Shown here in pieces: positions 35,727 through 47,863 of a stretch of 64,000 nt of DNA (its first letter is position 1; each line of letters begins with the position of its first letter). The notes below the pieces were generated by a model. The model was not told the origin of the DNA. It made no database searches and worked only from the letters and a program-made list of their open reading frames with translations. A program made the translations under genes and the position numbers. Source of the stretch: Gammaproteobacteria bacterium (GTDB taxonomy: Bacteria; Pseudomonadota; Gammaproteobacteria; SZUA-140); contig JACREF010000013.1 in the NCBI GenBank assembly GCA_016218365.1, forward strand, positions 1 through 64,000, in the 5' to 3' direction.

Positions 35727-37190
35727 ATGAGCGATGAGATCCTGATCAATGTCACCCCGCGCGAGACGCGCATTGCACTGGTCGAGAACGGCCTGCTGCA
35801 GGAGGTGTACGTCGAGCGCAGCAATCGCCGCAGCATGGTTGGCAATATCTATCTCGGCAGGGTGCAGCGGGTGTTGCCGGGCATCCAGGCCGCGTTCATC
35901 GATATCGATCATCAGCGCACCGCCTTTCTGCATGTCGCGGACATCCATGTGCCGGACGGCGAGGGCGGTGAACGCAGCCAGGCCGGTGCACAGATCGCCG
36001 ATCTGGTCCGCGAGGGTGATACGCTGCTGGTGCAGGTGATCAAGGACCCGCTGGGCAGCAAGGGCGCGCGGCTGACGACGCAGATCAGTCTGCCTTCCCG
36101 GTTTGTCGTGCTGATGCCGAACTCACGCAGCACCGGCATCTCGCAACGCATCGCCAGCGAGCAGGAGCGGCTGCGGCTGCGGGCGGCGCTGGAACAGATC
36201 ACGAATGGGATCCTGGCCGGATACATCATCCGCACCGCTGCCGAAGGCTGCAGTGCCGCTGAACTGGCGGAGGATGTGATCTTTCTCAACAAGCTGTGGG
36301 CCGCGTTGCAGCAGGTGCTGGTCGGGGCGATCGCGCCAGTGGTGATTCATGATGTATTGCCGCTGGAGTGCCGCATGCTGCGTGACATCCCGGGGACCGG
36401 CATCGACAAGGTGCGTGTCGATTCGCGTGAAACCTGGAAAAGGTTGCAGGAATTCTCCCGGCAGTTCATCCCCGATCTGCTGCCGCGGATCGAGCATTAC
36501 CCCGGGGCGCGGCCGATCTTTGATCTGTATTCAGTGGACGACGAGATCCAGAAGGCCTTGCAGCGTCGGGTCCAGCTCAAATCCGGAGGCCATCTGATCA
36601 TCGACCAGACCGAGGCGATGACCACGATCGATGTCAATACCGGCGCCTTTGTCGGCAGCCGCAACCTCGAAGAGACGATCTTCAAGACCAACCTGGAGGC
36701 CTCCCAGGCCATTGCCCGCCAGTTGCGGTTGCGCAACCTGGGCGGCATCATCATTGTTGATTTCATTGACATGACCGACGAGGAACACAAACGTCAGGTG
36801 TTGCGCGCGCTGGAGAAGAGCCTGGAGAAGGATCGCGCCAAGCGCCATATCAGCGGCGTATCGCCGCTGGGTCTGGTGGAGATGACGCGGGAACGCACCC
36901 GCGAGAGTCTGGAGCATGTGTTATGCGAGAGCTGCCCGGTGTGCCGCGGGCGGGGTACCCTGAAGACCCGCGAGACCACCTGTTACGAGATCTTCCGCGA
37001 GATCCTGCGTGAAGAGCGGCAGTTTGATGCCCAGCAGTTTCTGGTACTGGCCTCGCAGGAGGTCATCAGCATGTTGCTTGATGAGGAATCCACCAGCCTG
37101 GCCGAGCTCGAGGCGTTCATCGGCAAGCCGGTCAGATTACAGGTCGAAGGCATGTATTCCCGGGAACAGTTTGACGTGGTCATGATGTGA
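35727..37190 (+). CDS. rng: Ribonuclease G
   Basis: Endoribonuclease for 16S rRNA 5'-end maturation and mRNA decay. A 487-residue product with an S1 domain (about 35-125), an RNase H/E-type core (DQTEAMTTIDVNTGAFVGSR and IIIVDFIDMTDEEHKRQ) and the zinc-link motif CPVCRGRGTLKTRE (CxxCxGRG). ATG 35727 is chosen. The gap of 150 bp after maf shows a possible -10 (TATGAT near 35686) but no clear -35. Its stop overlaps the YhdP start. Confidence 0.95.
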   Translation: MSDEILINVTPRETRIALVENGLLQEVYVERSNRRSMVGNIYLGRVQRVLPGIQAAFIDIDHQRTAFLHVADIHVPDGEGGERSQAGAQIADLVREGDTLLVQVIKDPLGSKGARLTTQISLPSRFVVLMPNSRSTGISQRIASEQERLRLRAALEQITNGILAGYIIRTAAEGCSAAELAEDVIFLNKLWAALQQVLVGAIAPVVIHDVLPLECRMLRDIPGTGIDKVRVDSRETWKRLQEFSRQFIPDLLPRIEHYPGARPIFDLYSVDDEIQKALQRRVQLKSGGHLIIDQTEAMTTIDVNTGAFVGSRNLEETIFKTNLEASQAIARQLRLRNLGGIIIVDFIDMTDEEHKRQVLRALEKSLEKDRAKRHISGVSPLGLVEMTRERTRESLEHVLCESCPVCRGRGTLKTRETTCYEIFREILREERQFDAQQFLVLASQEVISMLLDEESTSLAELEAFIGKPVRLQVEGMYSREQFDVVMM

Positions 37191-40100
37191 CGAGCGGAGT
37201 AATACGCCAGCTCATTAACAGGATGTCGCTGATTCTGGCGCTGCTGATCATCGTCTGGGCGGTGGTGTACAGCATCGGGCGGTTGCTGTTTCCGCAGATC
37301 GTGCGCTATGACGACGAGATCATTAATCAGATCAGCATGGCGCTGCGACAGCCGGTCAGGGTGTCCAGCATCGAGGCGGAATGGAGCAGTGACAGTGGTC
37401 CGCATTTTACCTTCAGGGATATTCAATTTCTCGATCCGGTGACCGGCAGCGTGGTCATCGAATTCAGCGAGGCCGGCGTGGCGATCGACACGCTGAGTTC
37501 GTTATTGACCATGACGCCGCGCCTCGGCGAGATGACGCTTTCCGGCATAGATCTGGCGCTGTTGCGCCGGGCCGATGGCTCGATTGTGCTGGAGGGCTTC
37601 CGTTCAGCATCGCATCAGCCGGATGAACTGCAGCGCATCATGGACTGGCTGTTGTCACAGTCGCGGCTCGGCCTGCAGAACAGCCGCCTGACCTGGCGTG
37701 ACGAGATGGCGCCGTCCTCACCGCGGGTCTTCGATGAGGTCAATCTGGACCTGCGTAATTTCGGTCGTCGCCACCAGTTCAACGGTTCGGCGAATCTCCC
37801 GGCCAGTTTTGGCCAGCGGTTGTCGTTTGCACTGGATATCCGCGGCGATGTCATGGCGCCGCGGGGCTGGAGCGGCGAGACCTTTATCCACGGTGAAGGC
37901 CTGCAGCTCGGACCGCTGCTGGCCTGGCTGCCACCACAGGGGCTGCAGGTCATCAAGGGGGTGGTGGACGCTGATCTGTGGATGCAGTGGCGCGATGCTT
38001 CCGTGCAACGCATCGACGGCGATGTCTCGGCCTTTGGTGTGGTGTTGCAGTCAACCCTGCCGGGCGGCAGTGAGAAATCACTGAACGTCGATGCGTTGTC
38101 AGGCAGGTTGGCCTGGCAGTTGCGTGATCAGGGTTGGGAGGCGGCCCTCGACCACCTGGCGCTGGGTCGGGAGGGCCGGGTATGGCCGTACAGCCGCATC
38201 GATGTGGCGTCACATGCCAGCGCAGCGGGCCGGGACGTGGCATTCACTGCCGACTACCTTGAGATCGAGGATCTGCGGGCCTTCGCTGCTCTGCTGCTGC
38301 CCGAGGACAGTCCGGTCCTGGCCAATCTGGACCAGGCCCGGCCCCGTGGCCAGCTGCGCGCGGTGCGCGGCACGGTGCTCAGCCAGGGTGAGACGCTGAA
38401 CCTGTATCTGCACGGGGCATTCCAGGACCTGAGCCTTGAGGCCGGGAAAAAACTGCCGGCGCTGCAGGGCGCCGATGGCCGTTTTGCATTGCGAAACGAC
38501 AGCGGCGTGCTGGAGCTCGACAGCGATGAGCTGACGGTCGAGTTGCCGCGGCTGTTTCGCACGCCGCTGGCGATCAGCCACGCCGGTGGCACCGTGTCCT
38601 GGGCCATCCATGACGGCGGGATCCAGCTGGCGCTGCAACAGGTGACCGCCGAGAACGATGACCTGCGTCTGGTCATCGACGGTGATGTGGATGTGTTGCC
38701 CGGCACGCATGGCGGGGCCTATGTCGATGTGCTGGGACGTTTTGATGTGCCCGAGCATGGTCTGCGTCGGCTTGGCCAGTATCTGCCGGCGGGCATCATG
38801 AAGCCGTCGCTGGTCAGGTGGCTGGAGCAGTCGGTGCAGGATGGCCGGGTGCCGTACGGGGCCCTGATACTGCGCGGCCATAGCGCCGATTTTCCGTTTG
38901 AGCGCGGCACCGGAAAATTTGAGGTGCGTTTTGGTGTGGCCAACGGTGTGCTCAGCTACGATCGCAGCTGGCCACAGCTCACCGCGCTGGCCGGCGAGCT
39001 GGCCTTTACCGATCATACAATGGAGATCGTTATCGACGGCGGTCATTCGTTTGATTCCTCGATACGCCATGCCACCGTTACGATTGATGAACTGCGCGCC
39101 CACCCGCAGCAGCTGCGCATCAATGGTCATGTTGAGGGTGCAAGCGCAGATGTATTGCGTTATCTGGCCGACACCCCGCTGCAGACCCGGTTTGGGCATA
39201 TGGTTGCGGACATGAAGGCCGAGGGGCGCAGCACGCTGGACCTTGACCTGCTGCTGGCGCCGGGGGGCGGAGCGCCGCCGCGGGTGACGGGCAGTCTTGG
39301 CATGCTGGGAAGTCAGCTGTTTATCGCCGACCGCGCGGTGGACCTGCGTGATATCCGTGGCACGGTGACCTTTGGCGAAGACGGATTGAACGGCAAGGGA
39401 CTGACGGCCAATGTACTGGGTGGCATGCCGGCCCGTTTTGATGTCTCTACCATCGCGCTGGCGGAGCGGCAGGTGACGGTCATCGAGGCCAGCGGCCGCG
39501 CCAGTGGCGACGATGTGCGGCGTCTGACCGGTCAGTCATTGTTCAAGTATCTGTCTGGCTCCACCGACTGGCAGGCGTCGGTGCATGTCCTGGGAGGTGA
39601 GCCGTCGCAGATCGACATCACGGTCAGATCGGATCTGCAGAATATGTCCTCGTCGCTGCCGTATCCGCTGACCAAGTCCGCCCGTCAGCAGCTGCCGCTG
39701 ACGGTCAGCATGATATTCCCGCGCACGCTGGACAAGCCGGTGTATTTCCGTTTGGGATCACTGCTCAATGGCGTGCTCGACATGGATGCACGTATGCATC
39801 TGGAACGGGGCGAGATCCGCAGCGGCGAGACCCCGGCGCAACTGCCGGGTGAGCCCGGGCTGAGGATCTCCGGTGATCTGGATGCCTTTTCCTATACGGG
39901 CTGGGGGCCGTACATCGATGAGATGCGCGGCGGTGGCCCCGGTGCCGGTGACGGCGCGGGCATCAGTCAGGTTGACATGCAGTTTGGTCTGTTCGAGATG
40001 TTCAACCACCCGTTTCGCAACGCCAGGTTGCGGGCCGTGCGTGCGGTCGGTGGCTGGCAGTTTGATATCGACAGTCTGGAGCTGGCAGGCCGGATACGCC

Positions 40101-41047
40101 TGCCGCTGGGGTCGACAGCGCCGATCACGCTGGATCTGGAGCGGCTGATCCTGTCATCCGCGGCGGGTGGCCCGGCCATCGGCGCCGCCAACAAGGGTCT
40201 CGACCCGCGGGATCTGCCGCCGCTGAAGATTCACAGCAAACAGTTCATCTTTGATGCCAGGAATTTCGGCGAACTGGATCTGGTGGCCAGCAAGCGTCCG
40301 TCCGGCGTTCATCTGGACAAGTTGCGGATGGCATCGCCAGCGATGACAGTGGATGCCCGTGGTGACTGGCTGTATGTCAACGATGAGCACTTTTCGTCGT
40401 TCAGCATCGATTTTTCCAGCGAAAATTTCGGCAAGGCCCTGTCATCTCTAGGTTATGCCGGCACCATCAAGGGCGGCGCCAGTGACATCAGCATTGTTGC
40501 GCGCTGGCCCGGTACGCCGACAGCCTTCGCACTGGACGGTCTGGATGGTACCATGCACATGAAGATCGTTGATGGTCATCTGCTGGATATTGAACCGGGT
40601 GCCGGGCGCTTGCTCGGTCTGCTCAGCCTGCAGGCGATGCCGCGCCGGCTGTTCCTGGATTTCCGGGATCTGTTCGAGAAGGGGCTGGCGTTTGACCGGA
40701 TGAAGGGCAGCTTTACCTTTGCCAATGGTCAGGCAGTGACGTCTGATATGTATATGGATGCCCCGGCGGCACACATCGATGTCCGCGGCCGGGTCGGTCT
40801 GGTGGAGCAGGATTATGATCAGCGGGTGGTGGTGACGCCGCAGCTTACCACCGGCCTGCCGGTGGCCGGGGCGCTCGCCGGTGGCGTCGGGGTCGGCGCG
40901 GCGATCCTGGTCATTCAGGAGCTGCTGCAACCGCAGCTCAAGAAGGCCGGTCGCCTCGAATATCACATCACCGGGCCGTGGAACAATCCGGTGATCGAGC
41001 AGGTGGCTGGCGGTGGCCGGCCGGACAAGGGTAACAACAAGAGGTAG
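37187..41047 (+). CDS. yhdP: YhdP-family AsmA-like phospholipid transport protein
   Basis: A very large (1286-residue) inner-membrane-anchored periplasmic protein. One N-terminal TM helix (about 12-35) is followed by a long beta-rich rod (DUF3971/AsmA-like) of the kind that forms a hydrophobic groove bridging the periplasm; YhdP, TamB and YdbH move phospholipid to the outer membrane. The C-terminal part (AsmA_2-like; VTPQLTTGLPVAGALAGG) is typical. GTG start overlaps rng by 4 bp. The usual neighbour tldD is absent here; a nitrilase and the mla operon follow. Confidence 0.9.
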   Translation: MTSGVIRQLINRMSLILALLIIVWAVVYSIGRLLFPQIVRYDDEIINQISMALRQPVRVSSIEAEWSSDSGPHFTFRDIQFLDPVTGSVVIEFSEAGVAIDTLSSLLTMTPRLGEMTLSGIDLALLRRADGSIVLEGFRSASHQPDELQRIMDWLLSQSRLGLQNSRLTWRDEMAPSSPRVFDEVNLDLRNFGRRHQFNGSANLPASFGQRLSFALDIRGDVMAPRGWSGETFIHGEGLQLGPLLAWLPPQGLQVIKGVVDADLWMQWRDASVQRIDGDVSAFGVVLQSTLPGGSEKSLNVDALSGRLAWQLRDQGWEAALDHLALGREGRVWPYSRIDVASHASAAGRDVAFTADYLEIEDLRAFAALLLPEDSPVLANLDQARPRGQLRAVRGTVLSQGETLNLYLHGAFQDLSLEAGKKLPALQGADGRFALRNDSGVLELDSDELTVELPRLFRTPLAISHAGGTVSWAIHDGGIQLALQQVTAENDDLRLVIDGDVDVLPGTHGGAYVDVLGRFDVPEHGLRRLGQYLPAGIMKPSLVRWLEQSVQDGRVPYGALILRGHSADFPFERGTGKFEVRFGVANGVLSYDRSWPQLTALAGELAFTDHTMEIVIDGGHSFDSSIRHATVTIDELRAHPQQLRINGHVEGASADVLRYLADTPLQTRFGHMVADMKAEGRSTLDLDLLLAPGGGAPPRVTGSLGMLGSQLFIADRAVDLRDIRGTVTFGEDGLNGKGLTANVLGGMPARFDVSTIALAERQVTVIEASGRASGDDVRRLTGQSLFKYLSGSTDWQASVHVLGGEPSQIDITVRSDLQNMSSSLPYPLTKSARQQLPLTVSMIFPRTLDKPVYFRLGSLLNGVLDMDARMHLERGEIRSGETPAQLPGEPGLRISGDLDAFSYTGWGPYIDEMRGGGPGAGDGAGISQVDMQFGLFEMFNHPFRNARLRAVRAVGGWQFDIDSLELAGRIRLPLGSTAPITLDLERLILSSAAGGPAIGAANKGLDPRDLPPLKIHSKQFIFDARNFGELDLVASKRPSGVHLDKLRMASPAMTVDARGDWLYVNDEHFSSFSIDFSSENFGKALSSLGYAGTIKGGASDISIVARWPGTPTAFALDGLDGTMHMKIVDGHLLDIEPGAGRLLGLLSLQAMPRRLFLDFRDLFEKGLAFDRMKGSFTFANGQAVTSDMYMDAPAAHIDVRGRVGLVEQDYDQRVVVTPQLTTGLPVAGALAGGVGVGAAILVIQELLQPQLKKAGRLEYHITGPWNNPVIEQVAGGGRPDKGNNKR

Positions 41048-41885: not shown

Positions 41886-42713
41886 ATGTCTGAGATGACA
41901 GGTTCATCCGAGACGCTGGTGCAGGTGCGCGGGCTGAAGTTCAGCTACGGGCGGCGCGTGATCTTTGACGGTGTCGACATGGATTTCCTGCGCGGCAAGG
42001 TGACGACGATCATGGGGCCGAGCGGCACCGGCAAGACCACGATGCTGCGGATGATCGGCGGACAGCTGCGTCCGGATAGCGGTCAGGTCCATGTCGATGG
42101 GCAAAGTGTGCCGGAGCTGTCGCGTCGCCAGTTGTTTGAACTGCGCAAGAAGATGGGCATGATGTTCCAGACCGGCGCCCTGTTTACCAGCATGTCGGTG
42201 TTCGACAACGTCGCCTTCCCGGTGCGTGAGCATACCAATCTGCCGGAGCAGCTGATCCGGGATCTGGTGCTGATGAAGCTGGAGGCGGTGGGCCTGCGCG
42301 GTGCCCACAAGCTGATGCCGGCAGAGCTGTCGGGCGGCATGGCACGGCGCGTGGCGCTGGCGCGGGCGATTGCGCTCGATCCGCTGATGATCATGTACGA
42401 TGAGCCGTTTACCGGGCAGGACCCGATCACCGTCGGTGTCATCATGCAGCTGATCCGCAAGATCAACGACACGCTGGGCTTGACCTCGATCATCGTGTCG
42501 CATGACGTGGCCGAGGTGTCAGCCATCTCTGACTACATTTATCTGATCTCCAATGGCAAGGTGATTGGCCATGGCGCGCCGTCGCAGCTGGCGGCCTCAG
42601 GCTCCGGCTGGGTCACGCAGTTCATGCACGGTCAGCCCGACGGCCCGGTGCCGTTCCATTATCCGGCCCCCGATTATGCCACCGACCTGCTCGACGGTGC
42701 CGGGCATGAATGA
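41886..42713 (+). CDS. mlaF: Mla phospholipid ABC transporter ATPase
   Basis: Energises lipid transfer between inner membrane and MlaC. A 275-residue ABC ATPase: Walker A GPSGTGKTT at 44-52, signature LSGGMARRVALARA, Walker B LMIMYDEPF and H-loop SHD. The C-terminal extension (about 245-275) is where MlaB contacts MlaF in the known complex. First gene of mlaFED-tolC-like-mlaCB-ibaG-murA. Confidence 0.95.
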   Translation: MSEMTGSSETLVQVRGLKFSYGRRVIFDGVDMDFLRGKVTTIMGPSGTGKTTMLRMIGGQLRPDSGQVHVDGQSVPELSRRQLFELRKKMGMMFQTGALFTSMSVFDNVAFPVREHTNLPEQLIRDLVLMKLEAVGLRGAHKLMPAELSGGMARRVALARAIALDPLMIMYDEPFTGQDPITVGVIMQLIRKINDTLGLTSIIVSHDVAEVSAISDYIYLISNGKVIGHGAPSQLAASGSGWVTQFMHGQPDGPVPFHYPAPDYATDLLDGAGHE

Positions 42714-42731: not shown

Positions 42732-43514
42732 ATGCTGAACTGGTTGCAGAGACTGGGGCGTGGAGCGCTGGACAATTTCGCCGGTCTGGGGCGGGCCAGC
42801 CTGTTCCTCGGGCATACACTGAGCGGTCTGCCGTCCGTGCTGGCCCATCCACGGCGCGTCATCGCCCAGCTGCATTCCATTGGCGTGCTGTCGCTGGTGA
42901 TCATCCTGGTGGCCGGGCTGGCGGTGGGCATGGTGCTGGGCCTGCAGATGTACAACACGCTGGTCGATTTCGGCGCCGAGGCCTCGCTGGGACCGGCGAT
43001 CGCACTGACGCTGGTGCGTGAACTGGGCCCGGTGGTGGCGGCACTGTTGTTCGCCGGGCGCGCCGGTTCGGCGTTGACGGCCGAGATCGGCCTGATGAAG
43101 GCCTCCGAGCAGCTGTCGGGGATGGAGATGATGGCGGTCGACCCGATGCTGCGCATCGTGGCACCACGGTTCATCGCCGGGGTGCTGGCCTTGCCCTTGC
43201 TGTCCGCGATCTTCAGCGCCGTCGGGGTGTTGGGCGGTTATTTTGTCGGGGTGGGTCTGCTGGGGGTCGATGACGGGGCGTTCTGGTCACAGATGCAGTC
43301 GCGGGTCGATTTCTATGATGATGTCCTCAACGGGGTCATCAAGAGCGTGGTGTTCGGCATAATTGTTTCCTGGGTGGCGCTGTTCCAGGGTTATGATACT
43401 GTACCCACGACCGAGGGCGTCAGCCGTTCGACGACCCGGACCGTGGTGTACGCCTCGCTGGCGGTGCTGGGGCTGGATTTCATATTAACGGCATTGATGT
43501 TCAGGGATGTTTAA
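42732..43514 (+). CDS. mlaE: Mla phospholipid ABC transporter permease
   Basis: The inner-membrane channel subunit (260 residues, five to six TM segments; AGLAVGMVLGLQMYNTL and LTLVRELGPVVAALLFAGRA are the family core). Starts 18 bp after mlaF and ends one base before mlaD. Confidence 0.95.
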   Translation: MLNWLQRLGRGALDNFAGLGRASLFLGHTLSGLPSVLAHPRRVIAQLHSIGVLSLVIILVAGLAVGMVLGLQMYNTLVDFGAEASLGPAIALTLVRELGPVVAALLFAGRAGSALTAEIGLMKASEQLSGMEMMAVDPMLRIVAPRFIAGVLALPLLSAIFSAVGVLGGYFVGVGLLGVDDGAFWSQMQSRVDFYDDVLNGVIKSVVFGIIVSWVALFQGYDTVPTTEGVSRSTTRTVVYASLAVLGLDFILTALMFRDV

Positions 43515-43515
43515 T

Positions 43516-43989
43516 ATGTTCAAGGTGCGGACCATTGAAATCATGGTGGGTGTTTTTGTGGCGATCGGTATCGCTGCATTGTTCATGCTGGCGATGAAGG
43601 TCAGCAATCTGAGCAGTTTTGCCCAGCAGGAAGGTTTTCACGTGACGGCGAGGTTCCAGAATATCGGCGGCCTGAAGGTGCTGTCGCCGGTCAGCATGAG
43701 TGGCGTGCGCGTCGGCCGGGTGACGGCTATCCACTACGACCAGGGCAGTTACGAGGCCGAGGTCGACTTGGTCATCACCGGCAGTTATGACAAGATCCCG
43801 GTCGACAGCTCGGCCAGTATCTTCACCTCGGGGCTGCTCGGTGAGCAATACATCAGTATCGAACCGGGCGGAGAGGAGCGTTATCTGAAGCAGGGCGACC
43901 GGATCAAGTTGACACAATCCGCGCTGGTGCTGGAGCAGATGATCGGGCAGTTCCTGTTCAGCAAGGCCGCAGGGGACACGACGCAGTGA
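43516..43989 (+). CDS. mlaD: MCE-domain subunit of the Mla transporter
   Basis: A 157-residue protein with one N-terminal TM anchor and a single MCE domain (about 35-120; VTARFQNIGGLKVLSPVSMS), which forms a hexameric ring in E. coli above MlaE. The C-terminal helix (LEQMIGQFLF) lines the central pore in the known structure. ATG 43516 fits the AGGGA ribosome site; ATG 43507 (overlapping mlaE) is the alternative. The TolC-like gene starts in its last codons (GTGA). Confidence 0.94.
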   Translation: MFKVRTIEIMVGVFVAIGIAALFMLAMKVSNLSSFAQQEGFHVTARFQNIGGLKVLSPVSMSGVRVGRVTAIHYDQGSYEAEVDLVITGSYDKIPVDSSASIFTSGLLGEQYISIEPGGEERYLKQGDRIKLTQSALVLEQMIGQFLFSKAAGDTTQ

Positions 43990-45341
43990 CCGGATGGCGT
44001 CAGCTGACAGTAACCGTGTTGTTGCTGGGCCCGTCGTCGCTGCTGACGGCGCAGGATTACACCATGGACCTGCCGCAGTTGATCGCACGTTCACTGAGCC
44101 AGGACCCGCGGATCGAGGAGCGCCGCCACAATGTGCAGGCCGCCCATGCATTGCTTGACGAGGTGGCGGGCCATGGCGGTGTGCACTATGATCTGACGAC
44201 CTTTTTGGCGCTGACCACCGAGGTCAAGGGTGGGTTTTTTGAGCCCGGCACCTCGCCGCAGCTTCCGCGCTCCGATAAATATGACTGGAACGGCGTGACG
44301 CCCTGGGCCTCGCTGCAGTTCTCGGTCATCAAACCGCTGTATACCTTCGGCAAGATTGAACACTATTCCGAGGCGGCGCGCGCCAACATCCAGGTCAAGG
44401 AACAGGACGTGCGGCTGCAGAACGGCGAGATCGTCTATGACGTCAGCCGCGCCTATTACGGCTATCTGGCGGCCCAGGACATCGTCATGTTGTTCGATGA
44501 TGTGCAGGCGCGGCTCGACAAATCGATCGATGTTGTCACACGCTGGCTGGACAGCGGCAAGGGCAAGGTGCTGCAATCCGATCTGTATGCCTTGCAGACC
44601 GGGCGGGCCATCACCCAGCGTTACCGTGGTGATGCCGAGGCGATCCGCAATACTGCGCTGGCCGGTCTGAAGACGCTGGCGGCGCTCGATACCGCCGATA
44701 CGCTGACGCTGGCCGATACGCATATCGAACCCTTGCCGCTGCCGGAGACTGCGGCCGAGGTCTGGCAGCAGCAGGCGCTGCAGCGCCGGCCGGAGATGCA
44801 TCAGCTTGAGGCGGGTCTGCGGGCACGACGCGAGCTGGTGGCTGCGAGCAAGGCCGATAGCCACCCCAATCTGTTTGCCGGTGTGGTGGGCATGGCCGCG
44901 CTGGCGCCGGGCCGCGACCGCCTCGATAACCCGTACATCACCGATCCGTTCAATGACTATGGCGCCACGCCACTGCTGGGACTGCAATGGCACTGGGAAC
45001 AGGGGGTGCAGCCGGCCAAGGTCGCCCAGGCCCGTGCCGAGCTGGATGCGCTGACCGAGAAATCGCGCTTTGCCCGGCGCGGCATCCCGTTCCAGGTCAC
45101 TGAACAGTATAATAGCCTGCAGGCCTCCTATCAGGGGGTGCAGAACATGGCCGAGGCCAGCCGGGCCGGCCGGCGCTGGATGATCAGCACCTATACCAAT
45201 TTCGAGGCCGGGATCGAGCAGGCCGAGGATGTGCTGACCGCATTTCAGGGCTACGTGCTGGCGCACAGTGATTACCTACGCCTCGTCAACGATTACAATA
45301 TGAATGTGATACGGATGAGGCAGGTAACGGGAGAGTATTGA
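43986..45341 (+). CDS. TolC-family outer-membrane protein inserted in the mla operon
   Basis: A 451-residue OEP/TolC-type protein with a signal peptide (MTGWRQLTVTVLLLGPSSLL, cleavage near TAQ). It has the two-fold repeated layout of the family: helical stretch with DLPQLIARSLSQDPRIEERR, then a beta-barrel segment (WASLQFSVIKPLYTFGKIEH), and a second repeat (WQQQALQRRPEMHQLEAGLR, then LLGLQWHWEQGV). It overlaps mlaD by GTGA and mlaC by TGATG, so it is translationally embedded. E. coli mla has no such gene; there is no adaptor or RND/MacB pump nearby. A role as an outer-membrane exit or entry for the Mla system is inferred. Confidence 0.88.
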   Translation: MTGWRQLTVTVLLLGPSSLLTAQDYTMDLPQLIARSLSQDPRIEERRHNVQAAHALLDEVAGHGGVHYDLTTFLALTTEVKGGFFEPGTSPQLPRSDKYDWNGVTPWASLQFSVIKPLYTFGKIEHYSEAARANIQVKEQDVRLQNGEIVYDVSRAYYGYLAAQDIVMLFDDVQARLDKSIDVVTRWLDSGKGKVLQSDLYALQTGRAITQRYRGDAEAIRNTALAGLKTLAALDTADTLTLADTHIEPLPLPETAAEVWQQQALQRRPEMHQLEAGLRARRELVAASKADSHPNLFAGVVGMAALAPGRDRLDNPYITDPFNDYGATPLLGLQWHWEQGVQPAKVAQARAELDALTEKSRFARRGIPFQVTEQYNSLQASYQGVQNMAEASRAGRRWMISTYTNFEAGIEQAEDVLTAFQGYVLAHSDYLRLVNDYNMNVIRMRQVTGEY

Positions 45342-45949
45342 TGCTGGGGCGAATAGTGCTGGCGACATGTCTGGTGGCGGTGACGGGCAGTGGCCGCTGT
45401 GCCGGCAGCGATGCGCTGCAGCTGGTGCAGGACACCACGGCGCGGATGGTCCAGGCGCTGGACAAGAACCGCAAGGCCATTGTGGCCGATGAGAACCGTC
45501 TGTATCCGCTGGTTGAAGAGATCATCCTGCCGCATTTTGATTTTGAGCGCATGTCGCGCAGCGTACTGGGCAGATACTGGCGTGATCTGGCGCCCGAGGA
45601 TCAGCAGCGATTCGTTGCCGAGTTCCGCACCTTGCTGGTCCGCACCTATGCCACCGCGATGCTGGAGTATTCCGGACAGAAGATTGTCTATCTGCCCGTG
45701 CGCGCCAAAGCGGAAGACGTCGAGGTGACGATCCAGACCCGAGTGCAACAGGCCAGCGGTTTCCCGATCCCGATCGACTATTTCCTGTATCAGGACAGTG
45801 GGCGCTGGCGGGTCTATAACATGTCAATCGATGATGTCGATCTGGTGCTGAATTACCGCACCTCGTTTGCCAGGACCATCCGTGAAGACGGCAACGTCAG
45901 CGGTCTGATCGCCAAACTGCATGAAAGCAACCAGCAGGCCATGCAATGA
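45341..45949 (+). CDS. mlaC: Periplasmic phospholipid-binding protein MlaC
   Basis: Soluble lipid shuttle between the outer membrane and MlaFEDB. A 202-residue protein with a signal peptide (about 1-22) and the MlaC/Ttg2D fold (HFDFERMSRSVLGRYWRDLA and RVYNMSIDDVDLVLNYRTSF). ATG begins at the last base of the preceding TGA stop (TGATG). mlaB follows with a 4-bp overlap. Confidence 0.93.
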   Translation: MLGRIVLATCLVAVTGSGRCAGSDALQLVQDTTARMVQALDKNRKAIVADENRLYPLVEEIILPHFDFERMSRSVLGRYWRDLAPEDQQRFVAEFRTLLVRTYATAMLEYSGQKIVYLPVRAKAEDVEVTIQTRVQQASGFPIPIDYFLYQDSGRWRVYNMSIDDVDLVLNYRTSFARTIREDGNVSGLIAKLHESNQQAMQ

Positions 45950-46239
45950 GTGAGGTGGTGCTGGAACAACAGCCGGACGGTTACCGGGTCCGCGGTGAAC
46001 TGAGTTTTGATACCGTGGCGCAGCTGCTGGGGCGCAGTCCGGTGCACGGCGCGCAGCTGCGGGTCGATCTGGGCGGGGTCAGTCGCACCGACAGTGCCGG
46101 TCTAGCCTTGCTGGTCAGCTGGATGCGCGAGGCGCGCCATGCCGGCTGTGATATCCGGTTTAGCAACGTGCCGCCACAGCTGCTGGCGATCGCCCGGGTC
46201 AGCGGCTTCGACCGGCTGTTGCCGGTGGCGGCGCCATGA
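45946..46239 (+). CDS. mlaB: STAS-domain subunit MlaB
   Basis: A 97-residue STAS protein (VDLGGVSRTDSAGLALLVSW) that binds MlaF and stabilises the transporter. The conserved Thr/Ser at the STAS loop (SRTDSAGL) is present. Ends 75 bp before ibaG. Confidence 0.9.
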   Translation: MSEVVLEQQPDGYRVRGELSFDTVAQLLGRSPVHGAQLRVDLGGVSRTDSAGLALLVSWMREARHAGCDIRFSNVPPQLLAIARVSGFDRLLPVAAP

Positions 46240-46314
46240 TCCCATCACCTGCGGGAATCTGGTACCATGCAGCTGCCCGGTGCGCCGGGTCTTACCAGGC
46301 GGGCGGTGGACGGA

Positions 46315-46557
46315 ATGCATGCATCAGACATCAAGACCCTGATTGAGGCCGGCCTGCCCGGCAGTCAGGCGGTGGTACGCGGTGATGACGGGGTCCATTT
46401 CGAGGCCGACATCGTTTGTGACTGTTTTTCCGGCCAGGGGATGCTGGCCCAGCACCGCATGGTCTATGCCACGCTGGGTCCGCGGATGGGCGGTGAGATC
46501 CACGCCCTGTCGTTGCGGACATTTACCCCGGCAGAATGGCAGCAGCGTGGCCGCTGA
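46315..46557 (+). CDS. ibaG: BolA-family protein IbaG
   Basis: An 80-residue BolA-fold protein, probable partner of monothiol glutaredoxins in Fe-S handling and acid response. The family pattern is visible: a helix-binding loop (VRGDDGVHFEADIVC, with the conserved Cys) and HRMVYATLGPRMGGEIHALS. ATG 46315 is chosen over an in-frame ATG at 46267 that adds a non-family extension. Directly precedes murA, as in E. coli. Confidence 0.9.
   Translation: MHASDIKTLIEAGLPGSQAVVRGDDGVHFEADIVCDCFSGQGMLAQHRMVYATLGPRMGGEIHALSLRTFTPAEWQQRGR

Positions 46558-46603: not shown

Positions 46604-47863
<1,260 letters not shown>

Follow-up and report, generated by a model that had tools for sequence, protein, structure and literature searches.

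A TolC-family outer-membrane protein encoded between mlaD and mlaC is a probable substitute for MlaA in a variant of the proteobacterial Mla system

Introduction

The Mla system of Escherichia coli is comprised of the inner-membrane pump MlaFEDB, the periplasmic carrier MlaC and the outer-membrane lipoprotein MlaA in association with OmpC/F. MlaA is often regarded as defining the outer-membrane part of Mla. In E. coli K-12 mlaD and mlaC are adjacent, and mlaA is located apart from the mla operon (PMC10665443). An operon of the order mlaEFD-tolC-tamB, without MlaA or MlaC, has been described from Veillonella and other Negativicutes; the MlaD of these organisms is long and ends in a C-terminal beta barrel, and the authors treat MlaD rather than TolC as the bridge between the membranes (PMC10665443). 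TolC/OprM factors are otherwise known as the outer-membrane components of tripartite pumps.

Here we describe a proteobacterial mla operon in which a gene for a TolC-family outer-membrane protein (OEP) lies between mlaD and mlaC. The operon is orthologous to that of E. coli, with the same gene order, the same bolA-murA neighbours, a single-MCE MlaD and MlaC, and differs from it in the TolC-family gene between mlaD and mlaC and in the absence of mlaA from the genome. The closest precedent is the Negativicute operon, the nearest published case found, which likewise has a tolC homologue adjoining MCE transporter genes and lacks MlaA; in contrast to that operon MlaC and MlaB are kept here and MlaD has only 160 residues. 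The OEP resembles the TolC/OprM pump factors in Pfam family and predicted fold, but belongs to a separate sequence family, has no adjacent adaptor, RND, MFS or MacB gene and is partnered with an MCE-type ABC lipid transporter. A literature search that covered few subscription journals, with bioRxiv outside its scope, turned up solely the Negativicute case and no description of the proteobacterial arrangement, nor was it mentioned in the parts searched of an Acidihalobacter paper, a bioleaching metagenome study and a review of MlaA. The novelty of the proteobacterial arrangement is thus provisional.

Results

The window, the whole stretch of 64,000 nucleotides that was analysed, encodes MlaF, MlaE, MlaD, MlaC and MlaB, as identified with Pfam and NCBIfam, in one operon on the forward strand. 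The ABC ATPase gene mlaF (41886..42713, 275 residues) matched NF008809 with 401 bits, below the cut-off of 441, and is followed by the permease gene mlaE (42732..43514, 260 residues; PF02405, 241 bits; NF033619 above cut-off) and mlaD, encoding a single-MCE protein of 160 residues (43507..43989; TIGR04430, 188 bits, above cut-off). The OEP gene (43986..45341, 451 residues) starts with GTG, overlapping the TGA stop codon of mlaD (43987-43989) in the tetranucleotide GTGA, and ends with TGA at 45339-45341, overlapping the ATG of mlaC, which begins at 45341, in TGATG. Both overlaps and the length of the protein are as given in the preliminary description. Downstream, on the same strand, are mlaC for the periplasmic lipid carrier (45341..45949, 202 residues; PF05494, 182 bits) and mlaB for a STAS protein (45946..46239, 97 residues; PF13466, 62 bits; a weak match to NF033618 MlaB). 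Two synteny markers follow, a bolA/ibaG-like gene (46267..46557; PF01722) in the place held by ibaG in E. coli K-12, and murA (46604..47863), identified as an open reading frame with the same order in relatives and E. coli. The neighbours of the OEP locus are mla, nit, yhdP, bolA, murA and his genes. Among the open reading frames of the window, searched with Pfam, no gene for an adaptor (HlyD/MFP), RND, MFS, MacB or other pump component adjoins the OEP gene, which bears out the earlier remark that no adaptor or RND/MacB pump is near mla. Just upstream of nit and mla the window also encodes a YhdP protein of 1286 residues (37187-41047; PF13116, 880 bits). Since YhdP is an AsmA-type phospholipid transporter, two lipid-transport systems adjoin at this locus.

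The assignment of the OEP to the TolC family is based on Pfam, a structural model, a fold search and its conserved position. The protein matched PF02321 in two stretches with 90 bits against a cut-off of 22. The AlphaFold2 model, calculated for a single chain, had a mean pLDDT of 87.8 and a pTM of 0.77, and revealed beta strands at residues 67-78, 104-119, 295-306 and 324-334 and long helices at 123-190, 197-231, 341-407 and 413-448, in keeping with the layout of TolC, in which each protomer has four barrel strands and two long helical hairpins. The N-terminal 20 or so residues were disordered in the model and are a probable signal peptide. A Foldseek search against the PDB gave TolC, OprN and CusC/SilC as the best matches, with E values of 1e-17 to 1e-18 and TM scores of at most 0.77. 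In a search of genomes of the class, members of the OEP family matched at E values of about 1e-130 or better (the weakest 3e-130) and, with the exception of a fragment of a split gene (7e-31), no OEP match fell between 3e-130 and the limit of 1e-30. Because intermediate matches were missing although these genomes hold other OEPs, the protein is considered to represent a distinct family. Distances between OEP sequences correlated with those of MlaE (rho 0.74) and MlaC (rho 0.75), as Mla subunits do with one another; the slightly higher value for MlaC is not a significant difference. No relatives of the OEP were found in viral contigs.

The order mlaD-OEP-mlaC, which the preliminary description had proposed to look for in other genomes, proved to be widespread rather than a local oddity. 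A comparison with 39 relatives found the OEP in ten genomes; it is directly upstream of mlaC in all eight relatives with both genes on the contig, and in a ninth (G017) the contig stops at the OEP. When GTDB genomes were scanned with an alignment of these OEP proteins, 42 loci were obtained, of which 41 encode relatives 38-58% identical and have, as far as the contig reaches, the order MlaE, MlaD, OEP, MlaC (41/41). The lone exception to this order is the 42nd locus, from a Bdellovibrionales MAG, whose protein is 24% identical. Carriers in this set include Thiobacillus, Sulfuriferula, Sulfuricellaceae, Halothiobacillus and many gammaproteobacterial MAGs. An even sample of the class, which is Gammaproteobacteria in the GTDB sense as inferred from the sample members, contained 43 carriers among 370 genomes, and in all 30 carriers inspected the OEP gene had mlaD on one side and mlaC on the other. 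Sampling of the phylum added four loci, three of them outside the class, and all four had the same order. The genomes sampled were mostly MAGs. Occupation of the same slot in 41/41, 30/30 and 4/4 further loci indicates that the placement of the OEP gene is not due to chance. Many of the betaproteobacterial carriers (L076-L086) have, between mlaC/mlaB and bolA, a further ABC ATPase gene whose product shares about 25% identity with MlaF.

The slot itself is occupied in some other genomes by the known outer-membrane component. At three loci (L181, L053 and L054) mlaA lies between mlaD and mlaC, which provides a precedent for an outer-membrane protein at this point of the operon; the gene in exactly the same slot encodes the lipoprotein MlaA there and a TolC-family duct here.

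The preliminary description had noted that MlaA is absent from the operon and had raised the possibility that the duct replaces it. The absence holds for the whole genome of the window (97% complete), in which no match to PF04333 (MlaA) was found. Among genomes of the class sample with MlaC, MlaA was present in 5/43 carriers as opposed to 292/305 non-carriers (Fisher 4e-34, a p-value inflated by relatedness), and in the independent GTDB set 3/41 carriers encode MlaA; these counts strongly support the replacement. The same pattern was found in the family of the window's genome, where MlaA was missing in 8/10 carriers and present in 8/9 non-carriers, one genome whose contig begins inside mlaC (G016) having been left out of the count. 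On a tree of MlaE and MlaD the presence of the OEP requires 16 changes. The mutual exclusion persisted when relatedness was taken into account: phylogenetically independent pairs drawn from the best MlaE and MlaD tree gave 12 with opposite and 0 with the same state of the two proteins, and the MurA tree gave 7:0. With well-supported branches alone the counts were 4:0 for MlaE and MlaD and at most 3 pairs for MurA, in both cases too few for significance. Thirteen non-carriers with MlaC lacked MlaA, several of them fragmented assemblies. In two such genomes, G143 (L151) and G162 (L162), mlaC is not part of an mla operon as far as the stretch was read. Since OEP carriers are almost always without MlaA, the duct has probably taken the place of MlaA in their Mla systems. 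Some carriers hold both proteins, showing that the two are able to coexist; in all seven carriers with OEP and MlaA whose MlaA loci were inspected, mlaA is away from the mla operon. In one of the carriers that keep MlaA (G173; L211:4932-6974), mlaA adjoins a gene for a protein of 355 residues that, as judged by eye, resembles outer-membrane phospholipase A (PldA).

MlaC was retained in all 43 carriers of the class sample, and the tail of MlaD in carriers is as short as in non-carriers. The MlaD of the window, with 160 residues, has no C-terminal extension, barrel or adaptor domain. An extension of MlaD as the bridge to the duct was considered and rejected, tail lengths being equal in carriers and non-carriers.

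Apart from the mla-linked protein, the genome of the window encodes four OEPs. As judged by eye, or from Pfam where this was applied, two are clustered with genes for RND pumps or adaptors (L202), a third is at a locus resembling that of housekeeping tolC (L200) and the fourth is beside apparent genes of a two-component regulator (L201). The preliminary description had weighed its proposal against two other outcomes. That the order occurs only here is not the case. The other was use of the protein by a separate efflux adaptor, with mla working without it; in the genome of the window two of the four other OEPs are beside the usual pump partners and a third is housekeeping-tolC-like.

Discussion

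The results are best accommodated by a variant Mla system, MlaFED-OEP-CB, in which the OEP likely serves as a dedicated TolC-family outer-membrane partner that replaces MlaA while MlaC ferries the lipid. In this variant MlaFEDB, the pump of the inner membrane, and MlaC are unchanged, and a TolC-family protein, presumably a trimer, would stand in for the lipoprotein MlaA and its porin. MlaC would dock on the portion of the OEP trimer that lies in the periplasm and probably carries phospholipid between it and the MlaD ring; the trimer would provide access to the outer membrane. A retrograde direction of transport is preferred, only because the remaining machine is that of standard Mla. Weighing against the proposed substitution are the carriers that keep an MlaA (5/43 and 3/41), the preponderance of MAGs among the genomes and the nature of the duct, since it is not obvious how phospholipid would pass through the lumen of TolC.

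The preliminary description had also suggested that MlaD may dock to the duct, directly or via MlaC. A continuous conduit, with the MlaD ring meeting the duct end to end as in tripartite pumps and MlaC acting as adaptor or regulator, would be in keeping with the usual docking of TolC-family ducts onto inner-membrane assemblies and with the joint encoding of mlaEFD and tolC in Negativicutes (PMC10665443). It is nevertheless unlikely and direct docking finds no support, since the MlaD of carriers does not exceed that of non-carriers in length and has no adaptor domain, and since MlaC is kept in every carrier, whereas the Negativicute bridge operates without MlaC and MlaA; retention of MlaC together with an MlaD that is not lengthened favours a ferry over a direct MlaD-duct tube. 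TolC-type ducts mainly export, which invites an alternative in which the cargo of MlaFED and MlaC, a lipid or another hydrophobic compound, is exported through the OEP, MlaA having been lost as retrieval was no longer the task. This accounts for the loss of MlaA equally well, and an ABC exporter with TolC has reportedly been discussed for heterocyst glycolipids. We consider a reversal to export improbable, however, as MlaF, MlaE, MlaD, MlaC and MlaB are all typical of their families, the operon is not accompanied by biosynthetic genes and its position beside bolA-murA is the standard one.

It is still more doubtful that the OEP is an efflux duct for an unlinked adaptor and pump and is co-transcribed with mla by accident. 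TolC proteins are frequently shared and unlinked, but the position of this one is fixed across classes of the phylum, its presence correlates with loss of MlaA, and two of the four other OEPs of the genome are already in pump or adaptor clusters. Thiobacillus, Sulfuriferula and Halothiobacillus are among the carriers with names, which could suggest uptake of sulfur compounds as the role of the variant. The likelihood of such a role is negligible, as SoxB was encoded in 20/43 carriers versus 141/327 non-carriers (p = 0.74) and was not found in the genome of the window; with SoxB as the marker, which is not enriched in carriers, a link to sulfur oxidation was rejected. These alternatives set aside, replacement of MlaA by an OEP served by MlaC remains the preferred reading. 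A broader proposal, that MCE transporters with TolC-type ducts form trans-envelope lipid conduits in Gram-negative bacteria, with several origins by the swapping of MlaA for a duct, is speculative and on balance doubtful; under the same tentative proposal such conduits would constitute a second architecture, in addition to ferrying by MlaC and MlaA and to the tubes of PqiB and LetB.

About one in nine of the sampled genomes of the class (43/370) encodes a TolC-family protein in the mla operon, with MlaA nearly always missing, and a missing mlaA is for this reason unsafe ground for inferring that Mla is absent. If the substitution is true, TolC-family proteins are able to act together with an ABC lipid transporter of the MCE type. 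The disputed direction of Mla and its outer-membrane step then become testable in a natural MlaA-free system.

The MlaC of E. coli binds both MlaA and MlaD in one cleft (PMC10245069), and the tail of MlaA contacts MlaC residues numbered K84 and R90 (PMC10719372). Residue 84 is serine in the E. coli MlaC compared here, so that the published numbering is perhaps shifted by one. The R90 position was basic in 77% of carriers versus 92% of non-carriers, so that the residues linked to MlaA binding show no clear loss in carriers; as MlaD uses the same cleft, the comparison does not discriminate. The largest difference between MlaC of carriers and non-carriers, uncorrected for relatedness, was found at E. 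coli positions 138-149, for example F at 144 and Q at 139, and judging from the alignment this region is possibly a partner-specific surface.
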